This document shows positions 19,007 through 64,000 of a DNA stretch of 64,000 nucleotides, piece after piece. Each line of letters opens with the position of its first letter. The first letter of the stretch is position 1. Both the position numbers and the translations under genes were made by a program. The notes beneath the pieces were generated by a model. It saw only the letters and a program-made list of their open reading frames with translations, was not told where the DNA came from and did not search any database. The DNA is from Brevibacillus brevis NBRC 100599 (GTDB lineage: Bacteria; Bacillota; Bacilli; Brevibacillales; Brevibacillaceae). Location: the NCBI RefSeq assembly GCF_000010165.1, contig NC_012491.1:419501-483500 (forward strand). The letters run 5' to 3'.

Positions 19007-19105
19007 TTGTAAAACGTGATCAAAAATCCGGTTTTCTTTTATTTCCCTTCACGATTATGAATCGATTATACTGAAGAGAAAAGAGACGAAAATGGAGTGG
19101 TGATG

Positions 19106-20209
19106 ATGACAAAACAACATCCTTTGGCTATCGGCTTGGATGGTATCGCCGTAGCAGAAACAGACCTTAGTTTGGTGGATGGAATTAATGGACTGCTGGT
19201 GTACCGCGGTCATTGGGCGCGTGATTTGGCTATTCACCACACATTTGAGGAAGTGGCACACCTGCTCTGGTTCGGACATTTGCCGAGCGAGCAGGAGCTG
19301 ACGGATTTAAAAGATAAGCTCAAAGCAAACCGTGAGCTGCCGGAGCATGTAAAAGGAATTTTGAAGCTGATCCCAGCAGATGTAGATATGATGAGTGTCC
19401 TGCGTACAGGCGTTTCGGCCCTGGGTAGTTCCTCGCACGGCTTCCCGCCAACCATCGATGAGGTGATTGCGCTGGCTGCCAAGATGCCAACAATCGTTGC
19501 GTATCGTTTTGCTTGTCTGGAGGGCCTCGAGCCGCTGGCACCGAATCCAGAGCTGGATCATACAGCGAACTATCTGTATATGCTCAAGGGCGTAAAGCCG
19601 AATGCGGCACATGTACGTGCACTCGATGCATACCTGATTTTGACACAGGAGCATGGCATGAATGCATCGACATTCTCCGGTCGTGTCGTGAGCTCGACTG
19701 AATCTGATCTGATTTCTTCCATTACGGCAGCTATCGGAACCCTAAAAGGGCCGTTGCACGGCGGAGCACCATCCGAAGTGACGGAGATGATCGAGGCGAT
19801 CGGCACGAAGGAAAATGCAGAGCCGTGGCTGCGCAACAAGCTGGAGAGCGGCGGACGTTTGATGGGCTTCGGACACCGTGTCTATAAAACGATCGATCCG
19901 CGTGCAACTGCTCTGCGCGTCGTTGCATCCGAGCTGTCGTCCAACGATCCGTGGTTCGATCTGGCGACACACGTAGAAAAAGTAGGCTTGCAGCTGCTGG
20001 AAGAGTACAAACCAGGCCGCAAGCTGAATACAAACGTAGAGTTTTTTGCCGCAGCTGTCATGCGCGCAGTTGGCTTGGATGACAATTTGTTTACACCGAC
20101 ATTTGCTGTGAGCCGTGTGGTTGGCTGGAGTGCGCACATTCTGGAGCAGGCAGGCAATAACCGCATCATTCGCCCGCAATCCAATTACATTGGCACGATG
20201 CCAGAATAA
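19106..20209 (+). CDS. Citrate synthase / 2-methylcitrate synthase family
   Basis: A 367-residue citrate synthase condensing acetyl-CoA (or propionyl-CoA) with oxaloacetate in the cytoplasm. Conserved blocks are GINGLLVYRGH, LGSSSHGFPPTIDEV, MNASTFSGRV, the active-site His in LKGPLHGGAPSEV, and the second His in GFGHRVYKTIDPRA. The third catalytic position, usually Asp in NVDF, is Glu here (NTNVEFFAAAV). GTG-GTG-ATG-ATG all lie in frame; the last ATG fits the GGAG site best. The CitR-like regulator upstream suggests a citA-type, carbon-regulated enzyme. A methylcitrate synthase is possible. Confidence 0.88.
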   Translation: MTKQHPLAIGLDGIAVAETDLSLVDGINGLLVYRGHWARDLAIHHTFEEVAHLLWFGHLPSEQELTDLKDKLKANRELPEHVKGILKLIPADVDMMSVLRTGVSALGSSSHGFPPTIDEVIALAAKMPTIVAYRFACLEGLEPLAPNPELDHTANYLYMLKGVKPNAAHVRALDAYLILTQEHGMNASTFSGRVVSSTESDLISSITAAIGTLKGPLHGGAPSEVTEMIEAIGTKENAEPWLRNKLESGGRLMGFGHRVYKTIDPRATALRVVASELSSNDPWFDLATHVEKVGLQLLEEYKPGRKLNTNVEFFAAAVMRAVGLDDNLFTPTFAVSRVVGWSAHILEQAGNNRIIRPQSNYIGTMPE

Positions 20210-20225
20210 TAAAGACGTTAATTAT

Positions 20226-20256
20226 AAAAGCTATCCGTTATGCGGATGGCTTTTTT
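20226..20256 (+). terminator. Rho-independent terminator after citrate synthase
   Basis: AAAAGCTATCCG pairs with CGGATGGCTTTT around a TTATG loop, followed by a run of Ts. Confidence 0.85.
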
Positions 20257-20273
20257 TCGTGGTTTATAAATGT

Positions 20274-20771
20274 GGCTGTGGTGGAGAGAAGAATATTTCC
20301 AGTCTAGGCTCCAGGCTCCGTCCCGCTGAGGGCTGAGACTGTCCGCTCCGAAGGGATTCGCGGGGAAACGCAAAAGTGGTAGCCGCTACGTCGCATGGGC
20401 ACGGTTGCGTTTCTTTTGCCCGCGAATCCCTTCTCCGCTCGGTCGGACTCCACAAGTCGCTACGTCTGGAAATATTCTTCTCTGTCGTAACAGATTACAT
20501 CCTTATATTCTTTTAAGTCTTTTTAAAACCCGTTTAAGCAGGAAAAGCTCGTAGAGGAAACAGGAGAAAACAGCGAAGATCTTAGGGACACCGACCGAGA
20601 CGCAATGCAAAAAGGGAAACACGCCCTTAAGCGTCCACCTCTGATACACATCCTTGAAGATACCACTTTGGACGCGGTTTCGCTTTTTGCATGAAGTCGT
20701 ACAGTCAATCCCACAGCGGGTGGCCCTAGAATCTGAGCGTTTTCTCCTGTTTCCTCCCCACCACTACAGCC
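20274..20771. repeat. ~500-bp structured intergenic repeat, copy A
   Basis: The element is bounded by imperfect terminal inverted repeats GGCTGTGGTGG (20274-20284) and CCACCACTACAGCC (20758-20771). Lobe 1 (20285-20483) is closed by an 18-bp perfect stem, AGAGAAGAATATTTCCAG with its complement at 20466-20483. Inside are AAGGGATTCGCGGG/CCCGCGAATCCCTT (14 bp) and GAAACGCAA/TTGCGTTTC. Lobe 2 is closed by GAGGAAACAGGAGAAAAC (20554-20571) with its complement at 20739-20756, and contains nested GCGTCCA/TGGACGC. A diverged AT-rich linker joins the lobes. It has no coding signal. A second copy lies at 44633-45131. Confidence 0.9.
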
Positions 20772-20860
20772 GGAAAAATTGTTTTAACAAAGTGCAACTT
20801 GGGATTGCAGAACATGCTTACTTTTGGCATGATAATGAAAAAAAGTAAGGAGTGGAGCAA

Positions 20861-21889
20861 ATGGCGTTGTTGTCTACCCCGTTTCAGTTTAAAGGACTTA
20901 GCTTGAAAAATCGGATTGTCATGCCGCCGATGTGCCAATACTCCGTGGATGCACACGATGGAACACCAACGGACTGGCATTTTGTTCATTACGTTTCTCG
21001 TGCAGTAGGCGGAACAGGTCTGATCATCGTGGAAATGACCGATGTCGAGCCGGATGGCAGAATTTCCAACGGCGATTTGGGCTTGTGGTCTGACGAGCAG
21101 ATTCCGGCGTATGCGCGGATCGTCTCCGAGGTTCATAAGTATGGGGCTAAAATTGGCATACAGATTGCTCATGCGGGCCGCAAAGCGGAAGACGCAGAAG
21201 TGCCTGTATCATCGTCCGCGATTGCTTTCCCAGGGGGACGCTACAAAACGCCACGGGCGTTGACGACAGAAGAGGTCAAACAAATGGTCGTCAAGTTCCA
21301 GGACTCAGCGAGACGTGCGGTGGAAGCAGGGTTTGATACCATTGAAATCCACGGTGCGCACGGATATTTGGTTCACCAGTTCCACTCTCCTTTGACAAAT
21401 CAGCGAGATGATGAGTACGGGCGGGATAAAGCGCTGTTTGGCGTAGAAATTATTCAGGCAATCAAAGAGGTCATTCCAGCTGACATGCCGCTGATCATGC
21501 GCGTCTCAGCGGTTGAGTACGTAGATGGTGGATATGGGCTGGATTACAGCACGGAGCTGTGCCGACGTTACAAGGAAGCAGGCGTGGATATTTTCCATAT
21601 ATCCAGCGGCGGGGAAGGTCCAATTGGTTCAGCAGGCCGTCCAGGTGTTCATCCTGGCTATCAAGTACCATTGGCACGCGCGATTAAGCAGGCACTGGAT
21701 GTCCCAGTCATTGCAGTCGGCAACCTCGATGATCCACAAGTGGCGGAAGCGTCGATTGGCAATGGTGATACGGATTTGGTAGCAGTCGGTCGCGGCATGC
21801 TGCGAGATCCTTATTGGGCACTGCATGCGATTCATGAGCTGTCGGCGGATGAGCTGCAGCCACCGAAGCAATATTCAAGAGCGTTTTAA
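20861..21889 (+). CDS. namA: NADPH dehydrogenase, Old Yellow Enzyme family (YqjM/NamA)
   Basis: A 342-residue FMN-dependent ene reductase that reduces activated C=C bonds using NADPH. The start MALLSTPFQFKG is chosen because TAAGGAG lies 8 bases upstream. YqjM-class signatures are present: MPPMCQYS with the FMN-tuning Cys near residue 25, the catalytic/substrate-binding pair in IEIHGAHGYLVHQFHSPLTNQR, and the C-terminal DLVAVGRGMLRDPYW FMN-phosphate site. It may be induced by electrophiles. It is preceded by structured repeat A and followed by a terminator and a tetR gene. Confidence 0.92.
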   Translation: MALLSTPFQFKGLSLKNRIVMPPMCQYSVDAHDGTPTDWHFVHYVSRAVGGTGLIIVEMTDVEPDGRISNGDLGLWSDEQIPAYARIVSEVHKYGAKIGIQIAHAGRKAEDAEVPVSSSAIAFPGGRYKTPRALTTEEVKQMVVKFQDSARRAVEAGFDTIEIHGAHGYLVHQFHSPLTNQRDDEYGRDKALFGVEIIQAIKEVIPADMPLIMRVSAVEYVDGGYGLDYSTELCRRYKEAGVDIFHISSGGEGPIGSAGRPGVHPGYQVPLARAIKQALDVPVIAVGNLDDPQVAEASIGNGDTDLVAVGRGMLRDPYWALHAIHELSADELQPPKQYSRAF

Positions 21890-39633: not shown

Positions 39634-39652
39634 ATCATGCACGGGCTTGTGT

Positions 39653-39753
39653 TCATCTCTCAGAATCACTGGATTCTGCAGGAATTGGCACCATGCAGCT
39701 AGTCTGCTGGTTGCCGGGCTTCGTAGGGCCTGTCCCTCCACCGCTCTTGATGA
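39653..39753 (-). ncRNA. SAM-I (S-box) riboswitch for metY
   Basis: The minus strand carries the S-box consensus in order: AAGAG, CGGTGGAGGGA, CAGGCCC, GAAGCCCGGCAACC, then a variable arm, GGTGCCAATTCC, and the closing P1 strand. P1 forms from TCATC and GATGA. With SAM bound, the downstream terminator at 39602-39633 should form and stop metY transcription. Confidence 0.95.
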
Positions 39754-39770
39754 TAATAATTGTTGTCGTA

Positions 39771-44063: not shown

Positions 44064-44142
44064 CTTCTGCTTTCTCGGGTAGGCGCAGTCGGGGTATAAT
44101 AATAAGTAAGTTGAACACGTGATACAAAGGAGAGATTGCCCA

Positions 44143-44571
44143 ATGATGTCTTATGAAGCATATATGAGCCAAGTAATTCAACCAATGCGCGATGAGTTGA
44201 CACGCAACGGTTTTCAAGAGCTTCGCACTGCTGAAGAAGTAGAGCAAGCACTGCCAAATGCAAAAGGCCTGACACTTGTTGTTGTGAACTCGGTTTGTGG
44301 CTGTGCAGCAGGACTCGCTCGTCCAGCGGTTGTACATTCCTTGAATCACGCTACAAAACCGGATAACATCTTCACGGTATTCGCAGGTCAAGACAAGGAA
44401 GCGACAGCAAAAGCTCGTGAGTATTTCGAAGGCTATGCACCGTCTTCCCCATCCTTCGCGATCATGAAAGACGGCAAAATCATGACCATGATCGAGCGTC
44501 ATCAAATCGAGAACAACGAACTGGCAACAATCGCTGGCTTGTTGACCAACGCTTACGACACTTACAAATAA
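44143..44571 (+). CDS. Bacilliredoxin (BrxA/BrxB family)
   Basis: A 142-residue thioredoxin-like protein that removes bacillithiol from proteins after oxidative stress. The start MMSYEAYMSQVI is preferred because AAAGGAGAG lies upstream. The family CGC active site is in VNSVCGCAAGLARPA near residue 54. A TATAAT (44095-44100) lies just upstream, suggesting its own promoter. It is followed by a strong terminator and then repeat B. Confidence 0.93.
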   Translation: MMSYEAYMSQVIQPMRDELTRNGFQELRTAEEVEQALPNAKGLTLVVVNSVCGCAAGLARPAVVHSLNHATKPDNIFTVFAGQDKEATAKAREYFEGYAPSSPSFAIMKDGKIMTMIERHQIENNELATIAGLLTNAYDTYK

Positions 44572-44590
44572 GAAAGTACGAAACATCACG

Positions 44591-44612
44591 AGGCGCCCGG
44601 TAACGGGCGTCT
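44591..44612 (+). terminator. Terminator after the bacilliredoxin gene
   Basis: AGGCGCCCG (44591-44599) pairs with CGGGCGTCT (44604-44612) around GTAA with one G-U, followed by seven Ts. Confidence 0.88.
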
Positions 44613-44632
44613 TTTTTTACAGACTTGAAATG

Positions 44633-45131
44633 GGGCTGTAGTGAAGAGAAGAATATTTCCAGTCTAGGCTCTAGGCTCCGTCCATATGAGGGTTAAGACT
44701 GTCCGCTCCGAAGGGATTCGCGGGGAAACGCAAAAGTGGTAGCCGCTACGCCGTATGGGCACGGTTGCGTTTCTGTTGCCCGCGAATCCCTTCTCCGCTC
44801 GGTAGGACTCCACAAGTCGCTACGCCTGGAAATATTCTTCACTGTCGTTACTGAGGACATTTCTTCATTCTTTCAAAGCTTTAAAAAGCGGGGTAAACAC
44901 GGAAAGCTCGTAGAGGAAACAGGAGAAAACAGCGAAGATCTTAGGGACACCGACCGAGACGCAATGCAAAAAGCGAAACACGCCCTTAAGCGTCCACCTC
45001 TGAAAGCACATCCTGAAAGGACCACTTTGGACGCGGTTTCGCTTTTTGCATGGAGTCGGGCAGTCAATCCCCCAGTGGGTGGACCTAGAATCTGAGCGTT
45101 TTCTCCTGTTTCCTCCCCACCACTACAGCCC
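44633..45131. repeat. ~500-bp structured intergenic repeat, copy B
   Basis: This copy is in the same orientation as 20274-20771. Its terminal inverted repeats are perfect over 11 bp: GGGCTGTAGTG (44633-44643) and CACTACAGCCC (45121-45131). Lobe 1 keeps GAAGAATATTTCCAG/CTGGAAATATTCTTC, the 14-bp AAGGGATTCGCGGG stem and GAAACGCAA/TTGCGTTTC. Lobe 2 keeps GAGGAAACAGGAGAAAAC with its complement and a 16-bp ATGCAAAAAGCGAAAC stem, which is more perfect than in copy A. By eye lobe 1 is about 93% identical between copies, while the linker is much less conserved. It sits between a terminator and the SDR promoter. Confidence 0.9.
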
Positions 45132-52279: not shown

Positions 52280-52335
52280 CCGTTTTGTATCATCAAGAAA
52301 TAGAAAAAACGAACATAATATACGTAGATATCTTT

Positions 52336-52447
52336 CTTATCAAGAGAGGCGGAGGGACAGGCCCTATGAAGCCCGGCAGCCGGTTCATTTTCGAATGAAC
52401 GTCGCGGTGCCAATTCCTACAGGATTTTTGGATCTTGTACAGATGAG
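52336..52447 (+). ncRNA. SAM-I (S-box) riboswitch for metNIQ
   Basis: It contains P1 strands CTTATC (52336-52341) and GATGAG (52442-52447), then AAGAGAGGCGGAGGGA, CAGGCCC, GAAGCCCGGCAGCC, a hairpin arm GTTCATTTTCGAATGAAC, GGTGCCAATTCC and a final arm. The pattern is a full S-box aptamer. It is followed by mutually exclusive hairpins and a terminator before metN. Confidence 0.96.
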
Positions 52448-52481
52448 AAGGGTGGATGCGAACGTATACATTGCGTTGCAG

Positions 52482-55317: not shown

Positions 55318-56964
55318 ATGAAACAAAATCTCAAGTTGTTTCTTGGTGCGATGCTGGTCGCTGGAAGCGTGTTAGCTGGATGCTCCACGAGTACGCCATC
55401 GACGACAACCCCTCCAGCAGAGGGAAATGCAGCATCCGCTGAAAAGCCTGCAAATGCAAAGTCGCAGGTATTTCGGGCGAACATTGTGAGTGAGCCATCG
55501 ACTGCGGACCCTGGTCTTGCGAAGGATGCTACTTCGGGAGCGATCATTCGTGCTACTTTTGATGGCTTGACGCGCTTCGATGCAAACGCAAAGCCAGTGA
55601 ATTCAGTAGCATCCGATGTGAAGCTTTCAGATGACAAACTGGTGTATACGTTTACGCTCCGCGACTCCAAGTGGAGCAATGGAGACCCGGTAACTGCCCA
55701 TGACTTCGTATATGCATGGAAGCGTGCACTCGGCAAGACCTTTGGTGCCGAGTATGCCTATCAGCTGTACTACATCAAAAATGCGAAGCCGATTCACGAA
55801 GGCAAGGCGAACCCCGACGAACTCGGTGCGAGGGCAATCGATGACAAAACACTGGAAGTCACGCTGGAGAATCCAACGCCTTACTTTCTGGAGCTGACGG
55901 CTTTCTACACGTACTACCCAGTTAACCAAAAAGTAGTGGAGGCTAATCCAAAATGGGCAAACGAAGCGGCCACGCACGTAAGCAACGGTCCATTTAAGAT
56001 GACAGCGTGGGAGCACAAGAGCAAAATCGTGCTTGAAAAGAATGAGCACTACTGGGATAAAGACGTAGTAAAGCTCGATCGCATTGAGTTTGCGATGATC
56101 GAGGATGATAATACAGCGCTGTCCATGTTCGAGAACGGTGAGCTGGATTGGGCAGGCCAGCCACTCGGTGGACTTCCCACCGATGCGATTCCGACACTAA
56201 AAGAGGCGGGAAAACTCGTTGTTCATCCGAAAGCGACGATGTACTGGTACAAGATGAATACGACAAAAGGGCCGCTCAGCAATGTGAAAATTCGTAAAGC
56301 ATTGGCATACTCGGTAGATCGTCAAACTATCGTAGATAACATTACACAAGTCGGACAGGTGCCAACGATGGGGATGTTGCCGCAATCCATGATTATCAAA
56401 AAAGACGGATACTTCAAGGATAATGATGTAGAAACAGCGAAAAAGCTGCTGGAAGAAGGCATGAAAGAGCTCAACGTGACAACGCTGCCGCCGATCACCT
56501 TGTCTTACAATCCAAGCGACAGACATAAGAAAATTGCCGAAGCGATTCAGGACCAATGGAAACAAAAGCTGGGCATTGATATAAAGATCATGGTAAAGGA
56601 AGCTGCCGTTCATTTGCAGGATATGCATGAACTTAATTACGAGATGGGCCGTATCGGTTGGAATGCAGACTTTAATGATCCGATGAACTACCTGGAAATG
56701 TTCCGAGATGGCAAAACAGGCAACAACGACACGGGCTGGGAAGATCCGCGCTATCAAGAGCTGCTGAAACAGTCATCGGTAGAAACTGATCCAGAGAAAC
56801 GCAAGCAGCTGTTTGCAGAGGCTGAGCAAATCTTTATGGATGCCATGCCGTTGATTCCGCTGTTCACGGATGTGGATGTGTGGGTGCAAAGTGACAAGGT
56901 AAAAGGCGTTCAAGTAGATGGGCTCGGATTTATCGACCTCAAGTGGGCAGAAATGACGGAGTAA
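55318..56964 (+). CDS. Peptide ABC transporter substrate-binding lipoprotein (OppA-like 1)
   Basis: A 548-residue family 5 extracellular solute-binding protein. The lipobox is VLAGCS with Cys 22. The OppA/DppE core includes SEPSTADPGLAKDATSGAI, RDSKWSNGDPVTAHDFVYAWKR, NGPFKMTAWEHKSKIVLEKNEHYWD and PTMGMLPQSM. It binds oligopeptides outside the membrane and should feed an Opp/Dpp permease, which is not in the window. A CodY box precedes it. It is the first of four related genes and the most diverged of them. Confidence 0.92.
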   Translation: MKQNLKLFLGAMLVAGSVLAGCSTSTPSTTTPPAEGNAASAEKPANAKSQVFRANIVSEPSTADPGLAKDATSGAIIRATFDGLTRFDANAKPVNSVASDVKLSDDKLVYTFTLRDSKWSNGDPVTAHDFVYAWKRALGKTFGAEYAYQLYYIKNAKPIHEGKANPDELGARAIDDKTLEVTLENPTPYFLELTAFYTYYPVNQKVVEANPKWANEAATHVSNGPFKMTAWEHKSKIVLEKNEHYWDKDVVKLDRIEFAMIEDDNTALSMFENGELDWAGQPLGGLPTDAIPTLKEAGKLVVHPKATMYWYKMNTTKGPLSNVKIRKALAYSVDRQTIVDNITQVGQVPTMGMLPQSMIIKKDGYFKDNDVETAKKLLEEGMKELNVTTLPPITLSYNPSDRHKKIAEAIQDQWKQKLGIDIKIMVKEAAVHLQDMHELNYEMGRIGWNADFNDPMNYLEMFRDGKTGNNDTGWEDPRYQELLKQSSVETDPEKRKQLFAEAEQIFMDAMPLIPLFTDVDVWVQSDKVKGVQVDGLGFIDLKWAEMTE

Positions 56965-56976
56965 CGAATAGAAAAA

Positions 56977-57012
56977 AATCCCGAGGCCAACGAAATTGCT
57001 GGTCTCGGGATT
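56977..57012. terminator. Terminator between oppA-like 1 and the SRPBCC gene
   Basis: AATCCCGAG pairs with CTCGGGATT, with inner GCCA/TGGT-type pairing; T-rich on the plus side and TTTTTTTC on the minus side, so it can serve both convergent genes. Confidence 0.88.
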
Positions 57013-57020
57013 CTTTTGTA

Positions 57021-57470
57021 TTAGAATCCAAAATCAAGTGTCTTGCCTGTCTCCGCATACGTCTTGATCGACGAGAGCATCATCGGCCAATTGTTGCTGG
57101 CACTTGCGTGGGAGGGATGATTTTCTGTCCATTGATCCTGAATCAGCGTCAGCTTGGTGCAGCCGCCAACCGGTTCTAAGGTAATGGTGACACGAGACTG
57201 CAATTCCGCATGATTCTCGTAATAGGCAGGGCCAGGATGTTCAGTGAAACTGAAAATGTGATGAGGTTCGAACTGCAAAATTTTCCCGTAAACATGCACC
57301 GTGTCGTCACCAGCTTTTCCCGGCCCAACATAAGCCATCTCATCGCCTACTTGAAAAGTTGAGCGAATCGTACAGCCAAAGAAAGTGCTCTTTACGCCTT
57401 CATCGGAAGTAAGGGCATGCCAGACCTGCTCTGGCGTAGCACCAATGTAGAAATCGAAGCGAAGATCCAT
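57021..57470 (-). CDS. SRPBCC/AHSA1-domain protein
   Basis: A 149-residue START-like fold protein. It begins MDLRFDFYIGATPEQVWHAL, the usual first strand of AHSA1-type proteins, with FGCTIRSTFQVGDEMAYVGPG and PHHIFSFTEHPGPAYYENHA. It ends GYAE-like SIKTYAETGKTLDFGF. Such proteins bind hydrophobic ligands or assist Hsp90, but the role here is unknown. It is divergent from the AraC-type regulator gene, which may control it. Confidence 0.88.
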   Translation of the reverse strand: MDLRFDFYIGATPEQVWHALTSDEGVKSTFFGCTIRSTFQVGDEMAYVGPGKAGDDTVHVYGKILQFEPHHIFSFTEHPGPAYYENHAELQSRVTITLEPVGGCTKLTLIQDQWTENHPSHASASNNWPMMLSSIKTYAETGKTLDFGF

Positions 57471-57585
57471 CGTTTTACCCCCTCATTTTTTCATTTGGGA
57501 ATTGTAATCAAGTCTCCCAACTACTACTCTTACTATAAGAAGAAATCGGTAGTGTGTATTGTAAAAACACGACAGGAGGCGCACC

Positions 57586-58389
57586 TTGGAAAATCAGACT
57601 GCTAAGCTCCCAAAGGGTGTACTGCATGCCTTAATTGGACAGAAGAAATTTTCGCTGGCCAGATACGAGCCATCTGCTGGAATCAGCTACTTCGTGCAGC
57701 ATTACTGGGTCGTCCGGTGGGATTTGCGTACGGAACAACCTCACTTGCAAACCGTACTGGCTCATCCCAATGTGAATCTGGTGTTTGAAAAAGGAGCAAG
57801 TGGTATTTTTGGTGTAGCCCGCACGACTTCCTCGCATCTTTTAAAGGGACAAGGTCAGGTGTTCGGAGTAAAATTCAGGCCCGGAGGTTTTTATCCGTTT
57901 CTGAATGCCCCGATATCAAAGCTGAGCGGCACTTCTACCAGTCTGGAAGCCGTGTTTGGTGTTGCCACTGACCAGCTTGAGAAAGAAGTGCTAAGCCTGC
58001 CAAATGATGAGCAAATGATGAAAAGAGTAGAAGCCTTTCTATTCGAACATTTGCCGAAGCCTGACCCGAATGTTGCGCGCATTAGTGAAATCGTCAGGAT
58101 GATCCAGGCAGATCGATCCGTACTCAAGGTAGAGGATGCCGTACAGTTGACCGGTATGAACATGAGGACCATGCAGCGCTTGTTTGACCGTTATGTAGGG
58201 GTTAGCCCGAAGTCGGTCATCCAACGATACAGATTGCATGAAGCAGCGGAGCAGATTGACCAAGGAACGGTCCGGGATTGGCTGGACCTGTCTACCTCTC
58301 TAGGCTACTACGATCACTCTCACTTCATTCGAGATTTTCGAGCAATTGTCGGTGTAGCGCCGAACGAGTATCGACAAGCCCAAATTTAA
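57586..58389 (+). CDS. AraC-family transcriptional regulator
   Basis: A 267-residue regulator starting at TTG with CAGGAGGCG upstream. The N-terminal half (about 25-130) matches a DUF6597-like sensor pattern: ISYFVQHYWVVRWDL, HPNVNLVFEKG and GVKFRPGGFYPFL. The C-terminal AraC HTH pair (about 170-265) includes TGMNMRTMQRLFDRYVGVSPKSVIQRYRLHEAAE and LGYYDHSHFIRDFRAIVGVAPNEYR. It is divergent from the SRPBCC gene, the most likely target. Confidence 0.9.
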   Translation: MENQTAKLPKGVLHALIGQKKFSLARYEPSAGISYFVQHYWVVRWDLRTEQPHLQTVLAHPNVNLVFEKGASGIFGVARTTSSHLLKGQGQVFGVKFRPGGFYPFLNAPISKLSGTSTSLEAVFGVATDQLEKEVLSLPNDEQMMKRVEAFLFEHLPKPDPNVARISEIVRMIQADRSVLKVEDAVQLTGMNMRTMQRLFDRYVGVSPKSVIQRYRLHEAAEQIDQGTVRDWLDLSTSLGYYDHSHFIRDFRAIVGVAPNEYRQAQI

Positions 58390-58397
58390 TCATAGTG

Positions 58398-58426
58398 AAC
58401 CCCTTCGCCTTCTGGCTGGAGGGGTT
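58398..58426 (+). terminator. Terminator after the araC-type gene
   Basis: AACCCCTTC pairs with GGAGGGGTT, followed by GTTTCTTG. Confidence 0.65.
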
Positions 58427-58630
58427 GTTTCTTGCTGCATAAATTTTTATGTACGAGGCATACTTCATCATGATGAAACTACCAATTTTATTTCCTTTAA
58501 TAGAATTTGATGTTTGAATAAAACATAATTAATTTTACTTAAAATGTCTTCAATATTACTAAAAATGCAGTATATTTGTGGAGTAGCTTTCAAGGAATCT
58601 TTACCGATAGAAAAAGAGGGGGTCAACACC

Positions 58631-60256
58631 ATGAAAAAAAGCGTTTTTGCAGCAATGAGTTCTATCCTGGTTCTTAGTGCAGCGCTGGCTGGTTGTGGCG
58701 GCGGTGGTGAGAAAGCAGGCGAGCAAGGCGGTGCTTCTAAGGAGCAAACAAGCGGTCCTAAAGAATTGAGAATGAACATGATGTCCGAGCCACCAACTGC
58801 TGACCCTGCATTGGCTGAGGATTCTACTTCCAGTGCGGTTCTGCGTGCAACATTTGATGGTCTCACTCGTATTGGCGAAGATGGCAAACCACATCCATCT
58901 GTAGCAGAAAAAATTGACGTATCCGAAGATGGCCTTACTTATACATTCACCCTGCGTGACAGCAAATGGAGCAATGGAGAGCCAGTTACTGCAAAGGATT
59001 TTGAATACGCTTGGAAGCGAGCGCTCAATCCGAAGACAGCAGCTAACTACTCCTACCAATTGTATTACCTGAAAAATGCAGAAGAATACAACAAGGGTAA
59101 AGCAAAAGCTGATGATGTTGGCGTAAAAGCGAAAGACGATAAAACACTCGTCGTGACTTTGAAGAACCCAACACCATTCTTCTTGGAGCTGACTGCGTTC
59201 TATACGTACTACCCAGTTAACCAAAAAGTAGTAGAAGGCAGCGATAAATGGGCAGGCGAAGCAAAAACTCACGTGGGTAACGGTCCATTCAAAATGGAAA
59301 CATGGGAACATAAGAGCAAATTGGTTCTCGTGAAGAGCGATACTTACTGGGATAAAGACGCTGTAAAACTCGACAAGCTCAACTTCTCCATGGTTGAAGA
59401 TGCAAATACAGAGCTGTCCATGTTCGACAATGACGATTTGGATTGGTCCGGAGCGCCTCTGAGCTCACTTCCTACCGATGCGATTCCTGCATTGAAAGAA
59501 TCCGGTCAAATGCAAACACGCCCGATCGCGGGTACGTACTTGTACAAATTCAATACGGAAGTTCCGCCGTTCAACAACGCGAAAATCCGTAAGGCGTTTG
59601 CTTATGCTATCGATCGTAAATCGATCATCGACAACATCACGCAAGCAAACCAAGAGCCAGCTATGGGTCTGATCCCGCCAACAATGGCAGTGGCAACAAG
59701 CCCTTACTTCAAAGACGGCGATGTAGAAGCAGCGAAAAAGATGCTGGAAGAAGGTATGAAAGAAGAAGGCATTACCAAAATGCCTACCCTGACTCTTTCC
59801 TTCAACACGTCTGAAGGTCACAAGAAAATTGCTGAAGCTATCCAAGACCAATGGAAAAAAGCTCTCGGCGTAGACATTAAGCTGGAGAACAAGGAATGGA
59901 AAGTATTCTTGGAAGATGTGAACCAAGGTAAATTCCAAATCGCACGTTCCAGCTGGACTGGTGACTACAACGATCCATACACGTTCTTGGACCTGTTCAA
60001 GGACAAAGATGGCGGCAACAACGACACGAAATGGGAAAATCCGAAGTACAAAGAGCTGCTAAACCAATCTGCTCTGGAAAAGGACCCAGAAAAACGCAAA
60101 CAAATCCTGGCACAAGCAGAAGCTATTTTCATGGACGAAATGCCAGCAGCTCCAATCTACTACTACACACATTCTTATGTGAAAAAAGACAAAGTAAAAG
60201 GTGTAGTACTCGACGGTCTCGGTTTCGCAGACTGGAAATGGGCAGACATTCAGTAA
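58631..60256 (+). CDS. Peptide ABC transporter substrate-binding lipoprotein (OppA-like 2)
   Basis: A 541-residue family 5 solute-binding lipoprotein. The start MKKSVFAAMSSILVLSAALAG is set by GAGGGGGTCAACACC; an upstream frame into the AT-rich leader is rejected. The lipobox is ALAGCG with Cys 22. Core blocks are SEPPTADPALAEDSTSSAV, RDSKWSNGEPVTAKDFEYAWKR, NGPFKMETWEHKSKLVLVK and AIQDQWKKALGVDIKLENKEWKVFLEDV. It is closely related to the next two genes, suggesting recent tandem duplication. Confidence 0.92.
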   Translation: MKKSVFAAMSSILVLSAALAGCGGGGEKAGEQGGASKEQTSGPKELRMNMMSEPPTADPALAEDSTSSAVLRATFDGLTRIGEDGKPHPSVAEKIDVSEDGLTYTFTLRDSKWSNGEPVTAKDFEYAWKRALNPKTAANYSYQLYYLKNAEEYNKGKAKADDVGVKAKDDKTLVVTLKNPTPFFLELTAFYTYYPVNQKVVEGSDKWAGEAKTHVGNGPFKMETWEHKSKLVLVKSDTYWDKDAVKLDKLNFSMVEDANTELSMFDNDDLDWSGAPLSSLPTDAIPALKESGQMQTRPIAGTYLYKFNTEVPPFNNAKIRKAFAYAIDRKSIIDNITQANQEPAMGLIPPTMAVATSPYFKDGDVEAAKKMLEEGMKEEGITKMPTLTLSFNTSEGHKKIAEAIQDQWKKALGVDIKLENKEWKVFLEDVNQGKFQIARSSWTGDYNDPYTFLDLFKDKDGGNNDTKWENPKYKELLNQSALEKDPEKRKQILAQAEAIFMDEMPAAPIYYYTHSYVKKDKVKGVVLDGLGFADWKWADIQ

Positions 60257-60281
60257 GAAAAAGCGCATAGCTTGTTGTAAT

Positions 60282-60312
60282 AAAAGAAGGGTGCTACGGC
60301 ACTCTTCTTTTT
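60282..60312 (+). terminator. Terminator after oppA-like 2
   Basis: AAAAGAAGGGTGC pairs with GCACTCTTCTTTT around a short loop, followed by a T run. Confidence 0.88.
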
Positions 60313-60679
60313 TTTGCAAACCATTTTAAGAGAGAACAATGGAGCAGAGGATTGAAGGTGATAGTAGGAATTATAAAATTATAAATTAAATTACTATTGC
60401 CATTTTACTGAATGTGGATAAAATTGGGTGAACGAAAAAATATGTAAATAAATGAGGGGTGAATCCTCAACTCTGAAAAAGCTTGATTTTATGCGGTTTT
60501 TCTTAGAGATATCGAAAGAGGGATGTTCTGGAAATTTTATTTACCGATCAATTTGTTTTATAATTCATTAATTCTCTTTATAAATAAATAAAAATTTATT
60601 AAATCATTCTAAAACATATTTAAAAAATATATAAAACCATGTATATTGATAAAAGATTTAGAAAAGGGGGATTACTTGT
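60313..60679 (+). other. AT-rich leader region, no gene
   Basis: About 370 bases with no convincing gene. It is strongly AT-rich, particularly 60540-60660, which could act as an UP element or contain the promoter (TATAAT within TTGTTTTATAATTC near 60555). A partial CodY-like site, GATGTTCTGGAAATT (60522-60536), matches 12 of 15 consensus positions. It separates oppA-like 2 and 3. Confidence 0.4.
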
Positions 60680-62329
60680 ATGAAAAAGAATGTTTTCGTG
60701 GCAATGAGTTCTATCCTCGTTCTTGGCGCGGCACTCGCAGGATGCGGTGGCGGAAACCAGGCGGCACCGGCAGATAACAACGCTTCCGGAGCAAAGACAG
60801 AAAATTCTGCACCAGCTGGCTCTAAAGTACTGAAACTGAACCTGCACTCCGAGCCACCAACAGCTGACCCAGGTATCGCGGAAGATACAACTTCCAGCAC
60901 CATCATTACTGCTACCTTCGAAGGTCTGACTCGCGTTGGTAAAGACGGTAAATACAATCCAGCAGCAGCAGAGAGCTACACTGTTTCTGAAGACGGTAAA
61001 AAATATACATTCAAAATTCGTGATAACAAATGGAGCAATGGCGATCCAGTATCCGCAAAAGATTTCGAATATGCTTGGAAACGCGCTCTTAATCCAAAAA
61101 CAGCTTCCAACTATGCATACCAACTGTACTATGTGAAGGGCGCAGAAGCCTACAACAAGGGCAAAGGTAAAGTAGAAGACGTTGGCGTAAAAGCAATTGA
61201 CGATAAAACACTCGAAGTAGAATTGGCGAACCCAACTCCATTCTTCCTGGAGCTGGTTGCATTCAAAACATACTTCCCAGTTAATCCAAAAGTAGTGGAT
61301 GGCAACGAGAAATGGGCTACCGATGCGAAAACAGTTGTTGGTAACGGTCCATTCAAAATGGATTCTTGGGAGCACAAGAGCAAGCTCGTCGTTTCCAAAA
61401 ACGATAACTATTGGGATAAAGACAACGTAAAATTGGACAAAATCGAATTCTCCATGGTAGAAGATGAGAATACAGAGCTGTCCATGTTTGAAAACGGTGA
61501 ACTGCACTGGGCGGGATCTCCAACTTCTGCACTACCAACTGACGCGATTCCGGCTTTGAAAGATTCCGGCAAAATGACAACACAGCCAATCGCGGGTACT
61601 TACTTCTACCGTTTCAACACAGAAAAACCACCGTTTAACAATGCAAAAATCCGTAAAGCTTTTACGTACGCAATCGATCGTCAAAGCCTGATCGACAACA
61701 TCCTGCAAGCTGGTCAATTGCCTGCAACAGGCTATGTACCACCAAGCATGGCGCTGACCAAAGACGGCTTCTACAAGGATAACGACATCGAAGCAGCGAA
61801 GAAAATGCTCGAGGAAGGTATGAAAGAAGAGGGCCTCACCAAATTCCCGGCACTTACTCTTTCCTTCAACACTTCCGAAGGTCACAAAAAGATTGCTGAG
61901 GCAATCCAAGACCAATGGAAGAAAAACCTCGGCGTAGACGTGAAGCTCGAGAACAAAGAGTGGAAAGTATACCTGGATGATGTACACCAAGGTAAATACC
62001 AAGTGGCTCGTGCAGGCTGGTTGGGTGACTTCAACGATCCAATCAACTTCTTGGAAATGTTCAAGGAAAAAGACGGCGGAAACAACGATACTCGTTGGGA
62101 AAATCCGAAGTACAAAGAACTCCTGAACCAATCCGCTCTGGAGCAAGACCCAGAAAAACGTAAAGCAATCCTGGCTCAGGCAGAGCAAATCCTGATGGAT
62201 GAAATGCCGATTATGCCAATCTACTTCTATACTCAATCTTGGGTTAAGGACGACAGAGTACAAGATGTTATCATCGATGGTCTGGGTGCTGTAGACTACA
62301 AATACGCAGATTTCGTAGAAAAGAAATAA
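60680..62329 (+). CDS. Peptide ABC transporter substrate-binding lipoprotein (OppA-like 3)
   Basis: A 549-residue family 5 solute-binding lipoprotein. It begins MKKNVFVAMSSILVLGAALAG, lipobox ALAGCG with Cys 22, followed by a low-complexity linker. Core blocks are SEPPTADPGIAEDTTSSTI, IRDNKWSNGDPVSAKDFEYAWKR, NGPFKMDSWEHKSKLVVSK and QDQWKKNLGVDVKLENKEWKVYLDDVHQGKYQVARAGW. AGAAAAGGGGG precedes the start. It is very close to the fourth copy and separated from it by a terminator. Confidence 0.92.
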   Translation: MKKNVFVAMSSILVLGAALAGCGGGNQAAPADNNASGAKTENSAPAGSKVLKLNLHSEPPTADPGIAEDTTSSTIITATFEGLTRVGKDGKYNPAAAESYTVSEDGKKYTFKIRDNKWSNGDPVSAKDFEYAWKRALNPKTASNYAYQLYYVKGAEAYNKGKGKVEDVGVKAIDDKTLEVELANPTPFFLELVAFKTYFPVNPKVVDGNEKWATDAKTVVGNGPFKMDSWEHKSKLVVSKNDNYWDKDNVKLDKIEFSMVEDENTELSMFENGELHWAGSPTSALPTDAIPALKDSGKMTTQPIAGTYFYRFNTEKPPFNNAKIRKAFTYAIDRQSLIDNILQAGQLPATGYVPPSMALTKDGFYKDNDIEAAKKMLEEGMKEEGLTKFPALTLSFNTSEGHKKIAEAIQDQWKKNLGVDVKLENKEWKVYLDDVHQGKYQVARAGWLGDFNDPINFLEMFKEKDGGNNDTRWENPKYKELLNQSALEQDPEKRKAILAQAEQILMDEMPIMPIYFYTQSWVKDDRVQDVIIDGLGAVDYKYADFVEKK

Positions 62330-62342
62330 TAGCTGTGCATGT

Positions 62343-62379
62343 AAAAGAAGAGAGGTGCTATACTCGCCTTTCTTCTTTT
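62343..62379 (+). terminator. Terminator after oppA-like 3
   Basis: AAAAGAAG (62343-62350) pairs with CTTCTTTT (62372-62379), extended by AGAGG/CCTTT, then TTTAT. Confidence 0.8.
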
Positions 62380-62463
62380 TTTATCTATTTAATATCCAAA
62401 TTTTTACTTTTTATTGTATACTATTTTTGGAAGATTCTATCAGAGTTTATTGGAGGGTATATG

Positions 62464-64000
62464 ATGAAGAAGAGTGTTTTTGTGGTATTGAGTTCGGCCC
62501 TCGTTTTCGGCGGAATGATGACAGGGTACGAAGGCGCTGTCCAAGCTGCTGAGCCGAAGGTATTAAGGATGAATCTGCAATCGGAGCCGCCTACAGCAGA
62601 CCCAGGAATTGCGGAGGATACTACCTCTGGTACGATCATCACGGCTATATTCGAAGGTCTGACACGTCTCGGAAAAGACGGAGAGGTGCACCCGGCGGCG
62701 GCAGAGAGCTATACCGTTTCTAAGGATGGGAAGACTTATACATTTAAGATTCGTGAAGCAAAATGGAGCAACGGCGACCCAGTAACGGCACATGATTTCG
62801 AATATGCTTGGAAACGCGTGCTCGATCCAAAGATAGCTTCCAACTACGCCTACCAATTGTATTATGTGACAGGTGCTGAAGACTTCAACAAAGGGATCGG
62901 TAAAGCAGGAGACGTTGGTGTAAAGGCAATTGACGATAAGACGCTGGAAGTGGAGCTGACAAACCCGACACCATTTTTCCCGGAGCTGGTTGCTTTCAAA
63001 ACATACTTCCCGGTGAACAAGAAGGTAGTCGAAGGCAACAGAAAATGGGCTGACGAGGCAAAGACGGTTGTTAGCAACGGGCCATTCAAAATGGAAACAT
63101 GGGAACACAAGAGCAAGCTGTCTGTTGTAAAAAACGAGAAGTATTGGGATAAAGCCAATGTAAAATTGGATAAGATCGAATTCACCATGGTAGAGGATGA
63201 GAATACGGAATTGGCCATGTTTGATAACGACGAAATCGATTGGGCGGGTGCTCCAACGTCCGGGCTGCCAATGGACGCACTTCCGGTTTTGAGGGAAGCT
63301 GGCATCCTGAAGACACAGCCAATCGCCGGTGCCTACTTTTATCGTTTCAATACAGAGCAAGCACCGTTTACCAACGCAAAAATTCGTAAGGCGTTCGCCT
63401 ATGCAATTAATCGTGAAAGTATCACCGCCGATATCCTGCAAGCAGGTCAAGTACCGGCAACAGGCTATGTACCACCGAGCATGGCGTTGAACAAAGACGG
63501 TTACTTCAAAGACAGTGATCTTGAAGTTGCAAAGAAATTACTGGTAGAAGGTATGAAGGAAGAGGGTATCTCCAAACTCCCGCCAATTACACTCAGCTAC
63601 AACACATCCGAAGGTCATAAAAAGATCGCAAAAGAAATACAGGCTCAATGGAAGAAAAACCTCGGCGTAGATATCAAGCTCAAAAATTCAGAGTGGAAAG
63701 TATACTTAGATGACGTACACCAAGGTAATTATCAAATCGCTCGTGGAGGCTGGCTGGGTGACTTCAATGATCCCATCAACTTCTTGGAAATGTTCCAGGA
63801 AAAAGACGGCGGAAACAACGATACACGTTGGGAAAATCCAAAGTACAAGGAGCTCCTGAACCAATCCGCTCTGGAGCAAGACCCAGCGAAGCGCAAAGCA
63901 ATTCTCATGGAGGCTGAGCAAATCCTGATGGATGAAATGCCAATTATGCCAATCTACTTCTACGTGAACTCTTGGGTGCAAAACGAGAATCTGAAGGATG
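62464..64000 (+). CDS. Peptide-binding protein OppA-like 4, lipobox Cys lost (partial)
   Basis: An open frame to the right edge (about 512 residues so far; the C terminus is outside). It is a family 5 solute-binding protein very close to the previous gene: SEPPTADPGIAEDTTSGTI, WSNGDPVTAHDFEYAWKR, NGPFKMETWEHKSKLSVVK, WKVYLDDVHQGNYQIARGGW. Where the paralogues have AGCGGG the signal reads MTGYEGAVQAAEPK, so the lipidated Cys is Tyr; an AVQA-AE signal-peptidase-I-like site follows. It also lacks the usual linker after the Cys. Unless anchored otherwise it should be secreted. GGAGGG precedes the paired ATG. Confidence 0.9.
   Translation, partial: MKKSVFVVLSSALVFGGMMTGYEGAVQAAEPKVLRMNLQSEPPTADPGIAEDTTSGTIITAIFEGLTRLGKDGEVHPAAAESYTVSKDGKTYTFKIREAKWSNGDPVTAHDFEYAWKRVLDPKIASNYAYQLYYVTGAEDFNKGIGKAGDVGVKAIDDKTLEVELTNPTPFFPELVAFKTYFPVNKKVVEGNRKWADEAKTVVSNGPFKMETWEHKSKLSVVKNEKYWDKANVKLDKIEFTMVEDENTELAMFDNDEIDWAGAPTSGLPMDALPVLREAGILKTQPIAGAYFYRFNTEQAPFTNAKIRKAFAYAINRESITADILQAGQVPATGYVPPSMALNKDGYFKDSDLEVAKKLLVEGMKEEGISKLPPITLSYNTSEGHKKIAKEIQAQWKKNLGVDIKLKNSEWKVYLDDVHQGNYQIARGGWLGDFNDPINFLEMFQEKDGGNNDTRWENPKYKELLNQSALEQDPAKRKAILMEAEQILMDEMPIMPIYFYVNSWVQNENLKD

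Follow-up and report, generated by a model that had tools for sequence, protein, structure and literature searches.

The window analysed here is a 64,000-nucleotide stretch of the Brevibacillus brevis NBRC 100599 genome (C1:419501-483500 of G000, a single contig of 6,296,436 bases), and it holds two copies of a large hairpin element. Copy A occupies the spacer between a citrate synthase gene and a NADPH dehydrogenase NamA-like gene, and copy B follows a BrxA/BrxB family bacilliredoxin gene. The features of the two loci are as follows.

19097..20209, + strand: citrate synthase gene, upstream of copy A (best match TIGR01800, 382.5 bits, below the curated cut-off of 421.3)
20226..20257, + strand: intrinsic terminator 3′ of the citrate synthase gene, its T-run starting ~20 nt upstream of copy A
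20274..20771, + strand: copy A, whole element, 498 nt, read here as an inverted dimer of hairpin modules and aligned with 97 other full copies from 6 genomes
20274..20483, + strand: lobe 1, the left-hand module (fold; covariation in diverged relatives)
20285-20302 / 20466-20483, + strand: closing stem of lobe 1 (fold)
within 20350-20373 / 20405-20433, + strand: inner stems of lobe 1 (fold)
20486..20541, + strand: AT-rich linker (ortholog identity 0.772, a rate close to that of the flanking spacers, 0.73-0.79)
20542..20771, + strand: lobe 2, the right-hand module, homologous to the reverse complement of lobe 1
20554-20574 / 20737-20756, + strand: closing stem of lobe 2 (fold)
20605-20624 / 20674-20692, + strand: inner stem of lobe 2 (fold)
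20852..21889, + strand: NADPH dehydrogenase NamA-like gene, downstream of copy A (best match NF010047, 378.5 bits, below the cut-off of 431)
44119..44571, + strand: BrxA/BrxB family bacilliredoxin gene, upstream of copy B (TIGR04191, 211 bits, cut-off 100)
44590..44618, + strand: intrinsic terminator 3′ of the bacilliredoxin gene, upstream of copy B (terminator scan)
44634..45130, + strand: copy B, the second whole element of the window, ~90% identical to copy A

The bacilliredoxin match rules out sodA as the identity of the gene preceding copy B. Elsewhere in the window are two SAM riboswitches (39650-39756 on the − strand and 52334-52449 on the + strand), both above the Rfam gathering score, and four consecutive related genes at 55318-63941, whose 300-nt stretches are 65-76% identical to a reference copy and at least two of which have, by eye, lipoprotein-like starts.

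An initial sequence-only reading of this DNA had described the citrate synthase-namA spacer as non-coding and highly structured, and both descriptions hold. No open reading frame of at least 120 aa lies inside copy A, on which ground a coding function was rejected, and a mechanical minus-strand open reading frame (20726-21172) overlaps its final 46 nt. The two hairpin lobes and their stems are all found at the coordinates above: lobe 1 has an 18-bp closing stem and inner stems of 15 bp and 9 bp, and lobe 2 has an 18-bp closing stem enclosing nested stems. The AT-rich, diverged linker described between them is indeed the least conserved part of the element. Copy A also carries the enclosing terminal inverted repeat of that description (GGCTGTGGTGG / CCACTACAGCC, 11 nt, imperfect), but the outermost repeat pairs only loosely across the 98 aligned copies and makes more sense as a tag carried by each of two homologous modules in inverted orientation.

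The fold of copy A lies well beyond that of dinucleotide shuffles, with RNA folding energies of z -9.3 on the + strand and z -7.5 on the − strand (0 of 100 shuffles as low in each case) and ssDNA folding of its lobes at z -6.0 to -8.9 on both strands. Conserved structure of both lobes is strongly supported by the deep alignments, which after an 85% identity cut retained 18 lobe-1 sequences (from 135 unique ones) and 34 lobe-2 sequences (from 138 unique ones). The covariation score is 0.417 for lobe 1 (shuffled 0.155; slid controls at most 0.105) and 0.281 for lobe 2 (shuffled 0.108; slid controls at most 0.071); each structure was taken from the very alignment on which it was scored, which gives it an advantage over the slid controls, yet the gap in score is large, and 0 of 500 shuffles reached the score of either lobe. 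The check by covariance that the sequence-only reading had proposed therefore finds both lobes covarying far above controls. Pair counts were made on 17 lobe-1 and 32 lobe-2 sequences, after removal of one lobe-1 sequence that stood at a locus end and of the two lobe-2 sequences with the lowest scores. Changes on both sides occur at 30 of 55 pairs in lobe 1 and 28 of 50 in lobe 2, and in diverged sequences (<85% identity) standard pairs fill 94.7% of the cells in lobe 1 and 95.7% in lobe 2.

That reading had also staked its case on the existence of further copies, and these are plentiful. The host genome contains 63 matches to the element, of which 32 are full length, and a match occurs in every one of the 26 genus genomes searched (host included). 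The host matches assemble into 43 arrays or fragments, 23 of which contain both lobes; the 32 full copies occupy 21 of these two-lobe arrays, and the other two (at 564870 and 1636662) bear deletions. The largest arrays comprise four copies in G000 and five in G018. Outside the genus, 2 of 10 other family genomes and 0 of 24 further class genomes match the element, and an order-wide search with a distant-lobe query matched 27 of 39 genomes, including 25 of the 26 of the genus. One exact 33-mer of lobe 1 was found in 14 stretches of named records of B. porteri, B. formosus and B. fortis. The genus search scored 10 candidates per genome, so copy counts in relatives are lower bounds; longer match lists were compiled for eight genomes, and one of these lists again gives lower bounds. 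The full-copy alignment of 98 copies draws on six genomes (G000 32, G018 17, G002 14, G019 14, G012 11 and G014 10). Phage and plasmid collections gave no match to the element (distant mode, E 1e-5), and a phage or plasmid origin was rejected at that setting; no published description of this repeat was recognised among the literature matches listed. The host genome also contains a second hairpin family, whose lobe 1 differs in its interior and whose lobe 2 is shorter in some of the copies. Its loci (L067, L068, L072-L075, L077-L080) lie mostly behind terminators, and chimeras of both families stand at 383434 and 923867.

The two lobes were also compared with each other. The reverse-complement consensus of lobe 1 aligns to the lobe 2 consensus with a score of 39; shuffles score 21.8 +/- 3.5, and 2 in 1000 reach that value. 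Over all 18 x 34 lobe pairs, the mean reverse-complement score is 31.8, compared with 21.1 on the same strand and 21.5 +/- 0.41 for shuffles, the latter from a third of the sequences per set. Because lobe 1 resembles lobe 2 in reverse complement and stays at background on the same strand, the element is an inverted dimer of one ~210-nt hairpin module and not a single bipartite fold. The bipartite reading of the sequence was thus right about the two lobes and missed their homology in inverted orientation. The outer tags of both modules are close to GGCTGTAGTGG, which can be written GGCTG(T/C)(A/G)GTGG; at the left end, positions 5-8 are exactly GTAG in 28 of 98 copies and GYRG in 81 of 98, and the reversed 3′ end reads GCTGTAGT in 48 of 98. 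At outgroup loci, 15 adjacent module pairs lie <150 nt apart, seven as inverted (< >) and six as direct (> >) neighbours, three of the latter from one G006 array. All 11 neighbouring lobe-1-type matches <1500 nt apart in G007 are inverted, and lobe-2-type inverted pairs occur in G003 (L156, L157). Locus L158 of G006 differs from the inverted dimers elsewhere: its four lobe-1-type modules follow one another in direct tandem, separated by gaps of 73-75 nt.

The lobes and the linker have evolved at very different rates. Across 63 ortholog pairs of single-copy sites, identity is 0.955-0.998 in stems, 0.898-0.965 in internal loops, and 0.868 and 0.912 in the terminal repeats, compared with 0.772 in the linker and 0.834 at 4-fold sites of the upstream gene. 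The 20 nt on each side of the element show an ortholog identity of 0.73-0.79 with ~20% gaps, a gap fraction that may be inflated by the use of BLAST ends as flank boundaries. Since the stems far exceed both the linker and the 4-fold sites in identity, the lobes are under constraint at individual sites, and the linker is not. Copies in this clade are also old and mostly vertically inherited. Taking the whole element, the nearest neighbour is the ortholog for 0.63 of 80 copies (chance 0.05), which argues against conservation being due mainly to homogenisation within genomes. The argument is weaker for the lobes taken singly, where the fraction is only 0.25 for lobe 1 and 0.35 for lobe 2. Copies from different sites find their nearest relative within their own genome in 0.34 of cases against 0.19 expected. 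These low single-lobe fractions, together with the same-genome excess, make some gene conversion between copies possible.

Filled and empty sites were compared across genomes. The ortholog groups of sites number 17, each common to two to six genomes, and array size varies between genomes at one site. At the citrate synthase-namA site the element is present in 9 of 9 close species (G000, G002, G004, G005, G012, G013, G014, G018, G019), three of which have shorter spans; the site is empty in G003, G009 and G023, where the terminator is kept and 129-153 bp separate the genes, and G015 carries a lobe-2-type module. At the bacilliredoxin site at least part of the element is found in 8 of 9 close species, G018 being empty, and at a third site, next to what we take from its sequence to be a glutamate dehydrogenase gene, the element is found in 7 of 9. 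In 17 outgroup genomes the lobe models found nothing in the spans scanned at the latter two sites. The insertions at the compared sites are thus older than the split of the group. No target-site duplication was recognised by eye between filled and empty citrate synthase and bacilliredoxin sites, where the insertions are old. The proposal of a MITE-like mobile element therefore fares unevenly: dispersed copies and empty sites in some outgroups support a mobile origin, but no target duplication was recognised and the copies are old and mostly vertically inherited.

The position of the element was set against that of transcription terminators. A terminator-like hairpin with a T-run precedes 16 of the 23 two-lobe arrays and 11 of the 20 other host matches by no more than 50 nt, compared with 71 of 2000 random points (3.6%); seven two-lobe arrays have no terminator-like site within that distance, and four have a converging terminator downstream. 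Among the 16 two-lobe arrays with such a terminator upstream, the distance from the start of the T-run to the start of the element is 11-26 nt in 15. Junctions inside arrays are similarly regular, 26 of 27 measuring 23-25 nt, and junctions at unrelated sites share, by eye, a consensus close to AACAACTTGAGGTTCTTATGTATGT. Such fixed junctions fit either insertion at a set distance behind a hairpin or the spread of a pre-formed array. The gene directly upstream of the array at 862802 (L091, ~C1:862800, G000) presumably resembles a group II intron reverse transcriptase; if this is what it encodes, two element kinds may share one terminator target.

In addition to terminators, the element follows the direction of replication. 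With the replication arm taken from the contig midpoint and the origin assumed at the contig start, all 23 two-lobe arrays of the host genome are co-oriented with replication, as are 17 of 20 partial or second-family matches (three exceptions); the host background, from 20 sampled 20-kb regions, is 235 of 338 open reading frames and 91 of 143 terminator-like sites. In four other genomes 60 of 67 sites run with replication (G007 23/26, G008 14/14, G017 11/12, G001 12/15), counted as lobe-1-type class-a sites of at least 190 bits in G007 and G008 and as lobe-2 sites in G017 and G001, the last two each alone not significantly above 0.7 (p 0.085 and 0.30). Orientation counts used cut-offs of at least 105 bits in one match list and at least 86 bits in the other, and one 92-bit G017 match was left out. 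Pooled with the host genome, 83 of 90 sites are co-oriented (p 1.7e-7 against 0.695 and 1.3e-3 against 0.8), p values that are approximate because the 0.695 background comes from G000 only and some sites may be orthologous between lineages. Partner (class-b) sites run with replication in 12 of 14 cases in G007 and 6 of 8 in G008, without six matches of 150-180 bits. Among the matches listed for G012 and G014, all full-length rows do so (20/20 and 22/22), largely repeating the sites of the host genome.

Enzymes that might move the element were sought among known transposase families. PF01797, the Y1 transposase family, matches in 16 of the 26 genus genomes, a result that tells Y1 family and not RAYT membership, and has no match at E 0.001 in the carrier genomes G012, G013 and G014; a Y1 transposase was accordingly rejected as present mobiliser. 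No cleavage site or transposition intermediate of the element was identified. An IS1182-family insertion sequence of ~1.97 kb (400 bits, cut-off 270) carries one lobe-1-type module upstream of its transposase, in seven copies in G011 (L359, L361-L366) and one in G025 (L373) that are 98-100% identical; related copies occur in G028 (L367-L370, ~86-89% identical, rearranged) and at L374 in G025. By eye, six of the eight near-identical copies lie within intrinsic terminator loops and are flanked by short repeats. Such carriage is one way for modules to move, between genera as well, and does not show how the dimers spread: the insertion sequence carries a single lobe-1-type module and its ends differ from dimer ends, so IS1182 was rejected as their mobiliser.

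Several known systems share some of these properties. Group IIC introns target terminators, and the element likewise lies downstream of them in sense orientation, but it consists of palindromic lobes, not ribozyme domains, and no Rfam group II family matches it. The bcr1-type repeats of the Bacillus cereus group, ~155 bp long, are comparable, by description, as a dispersed repeat family in a Firmicutes group. REPINs and BIMEs are paired REP sequences moved by RAYT/TnpA_REP. The element resembles them in its two homologous inverted hairpins, its intergenic position and its occurrence also as single modules, tandem arrays and mixed dimers, and perhaps in its GTAG-like outer tag (28/98 exact, 81/98 as GYRG). 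It differs in its ~210-nt module with conserved internal loops, where a REP hairpin has roughly 20-65 nt (20-40 bp in one account, PMC3733652; 21-65 nt in another, PMC6006769). The three carrier genomes without a PF01797 match (G012, G013, G014) are a further difference, as are its terminator and replication polarity and its old copies under per-site constraint. GTAG repeats have been reported from Proteobacteria, Cyanobacteria, Chloroflexi and the PVC group, with Firmicutes unmentioned in the main text of that report (PMC3733652). The IS200/IS605 family is described as having hairpin ends and using the lagging-strand template (PMC6006769), and the element would be similar in both respects; unlike that family, it has no internal transposase gene, PF01797 has no match in three carriers, and the element body itself is a hairpin. 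The element is REPIN-like in layout, but not in the size of its hairpins or in the presence of a Y1 transposase in every carrier.

Whether the conserved structure acts as RNA or DNA was addressed through wobble pairs, with same-genus SAM riboswitches (17 of 52 sequences after the 85% identity cut) as control. Among pairs that are at least 60% Watson-Crick, the lobes have 51 G.U to 48 A.C and the riboswitches 15 to 2 (Fisher p 0.0066). Unfiltered, the counts are 51 to 18 in lobe 1, 38 to 30 in lobe 2 and 18 to 4 in the riboswitches, the lobe 1 count arising because three mid-helix pairs are mostly G.U on the + strand. Symmetrised over the folds of both strands, the control gives 35 to 25 and the lobes do not differ significantly from it (p 0.87 and 0.098). 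Since the signal is gone once the filter is removed, the wobble test was rejected as proof of DNA-level structure; the long stems look like DNA, and the lobe 1 mid-helix leaves room for RNA. No Rfam family matches the element at gathering scores in a scan of the window, and a scan of 20200-20850 at E up to 10 gave four weak matches, all far below gathering scores, and a known structured RNA was rejected on these scans; the group II intron covariance models had no match in either scan.

These observations bear on several explanations. We give an even chance to the view that the element is a giant REPIN-like DNA hairpin, inserted through single-stranded DNA in an ancestor, now immobile and held by selection on folded DNA. 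A somewhat unlikely alternative is a large structured RNA, made by terminator read-through or from an unseen promoter and acting as a 3′ UTR stabiliser, processing site or small RNA. Covariation with conserved internal loops is typical of such RNA, and the folding energy far under shuffles and the three mostly G.U pairs on the + strand of lobe 1 also speak for it; yet the 11-26 nt between T-run and element in 15 of 16 arrays leave little room for a promoter, and downstream genes in both orientations (by a crude ORF call) mean that the element is not a leader in general. The near-equal G.U and A.C of the filtered stems, unlike the SAM control, also count against RNA but fail to hold unfiltered, and no Rfam family is matched at gathering, with only weak sub-threshold matches. 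Of the structured RNA suggested by the sequence-only reading, then, the conserved structure of both lobes stands, and the wobble counts are split by the filter (51:48 filtered; 51:18 in lobe 1 unfiltered). It is unlikely that we are looking at a MITE-like element once moved by a DDE transposase, its orientation and terminator bias owed to insertion at the ends of genes that are mostly leading-strand, and its conservation to gene conversion between copies. Terminal inverted repeats, tens of dispersed copies and the same-genome enrichment among different-site copies agree with this, and IS1182-family carriage of a lobe-1-type module (G011, G025 and related G028) indicates that DDE elements can carry modules. 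However, no target-site duplication was recognised at the compared sites, the dimers have no IS1182-type ends, the orientation bias exceeds the ORF and terminator background of the host genome, and whole-element ortholog clustering speaks against strong conversion.

Template switching within hairpins during replication would correct mismatches and leave paired changes, and palindromes maintained by such mutation alone would mimic covariation, with fork polarity giving the orientation. The equal G.T and A.C of the filtered stems and the many pairs changed on both sides are as this process predicts, but it is quite improbable, leaving unexplained the near-invariant stem sequence, internal loops at 0.898-0.965 against 0.834 at 4-fold sites, and the placement behind terminators. 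It is highly improbable that the element belongs to the host chromosome, has no mobile ancestry and serves in replication, for example as a signal for a polar fork, the primosome or segregation: this view accords with the replication co-orientation and the conserved sites, but the empty sites in outgroups and G018, the varying array sizes, the chimeras and the IS carriage all look mobile. Among the remaining ideas raised from the sequence were a transcription barrier and a nucleoid or replication landmark; as to the latter, the links to replication direction (23/23; 83/90 pooled) and to terminators are real.

In the REPIN-like DNA-hairpin explanation, units would have been inserted in the ancestor of the B. 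brevis group by a single-stranded DNA route. The machinery would have recognised a hairpin in the lagging-strand template, which could be a terminator stem-loop or an earlier copy's end, and the unit would have gone in close by on the 3′ side of that hairpin; recognition of an earlier copy's end would then generate tandem arrays with the near-fixed 23-25 nt spacing. The units would now be essentially immobile in the clade, with selection keeping a folded DNA shape, a ssDNA hairpin or cruciform. Their role would most likely be that of a protein-binding or topology element at the 3′ ends of leading-strand genes, as proposed for REP/BIME. The dimer architecture, the covariation, the per-site constraint on the lobes, the position behind terminators and the replication co-orientation are established; the mobility mechanism and host function are our inference. 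A wider version is possible, and we put it forward tentatively: large DNA-hairpin modules, in a left-hand and a right-hand version of one fold, may be a genus-wide class whose insertion is directed by lagging-strand-template hairpins, the paired form having been recruited as a fork-polar gene-end element. Selection at tens of sites would then be keeping a DNA fold, and neither an RNA nor a protein.

REP and REPIN sequences are known as short hairpins, and here a Firmicutes genus shows the same layout built from modules of several times that size. With it come conserved internal loops, polarity with respect to terminators and replication, and a per-site constraint that can be measured. If the DNA-level reading is true, the Brevibacillus element would show with unusual clarity that selection acts on the folded form of chromosomal DNA, and would offer a tractable system for studying the targeting or use of single-stranded DNA hairpins at the replication fork.
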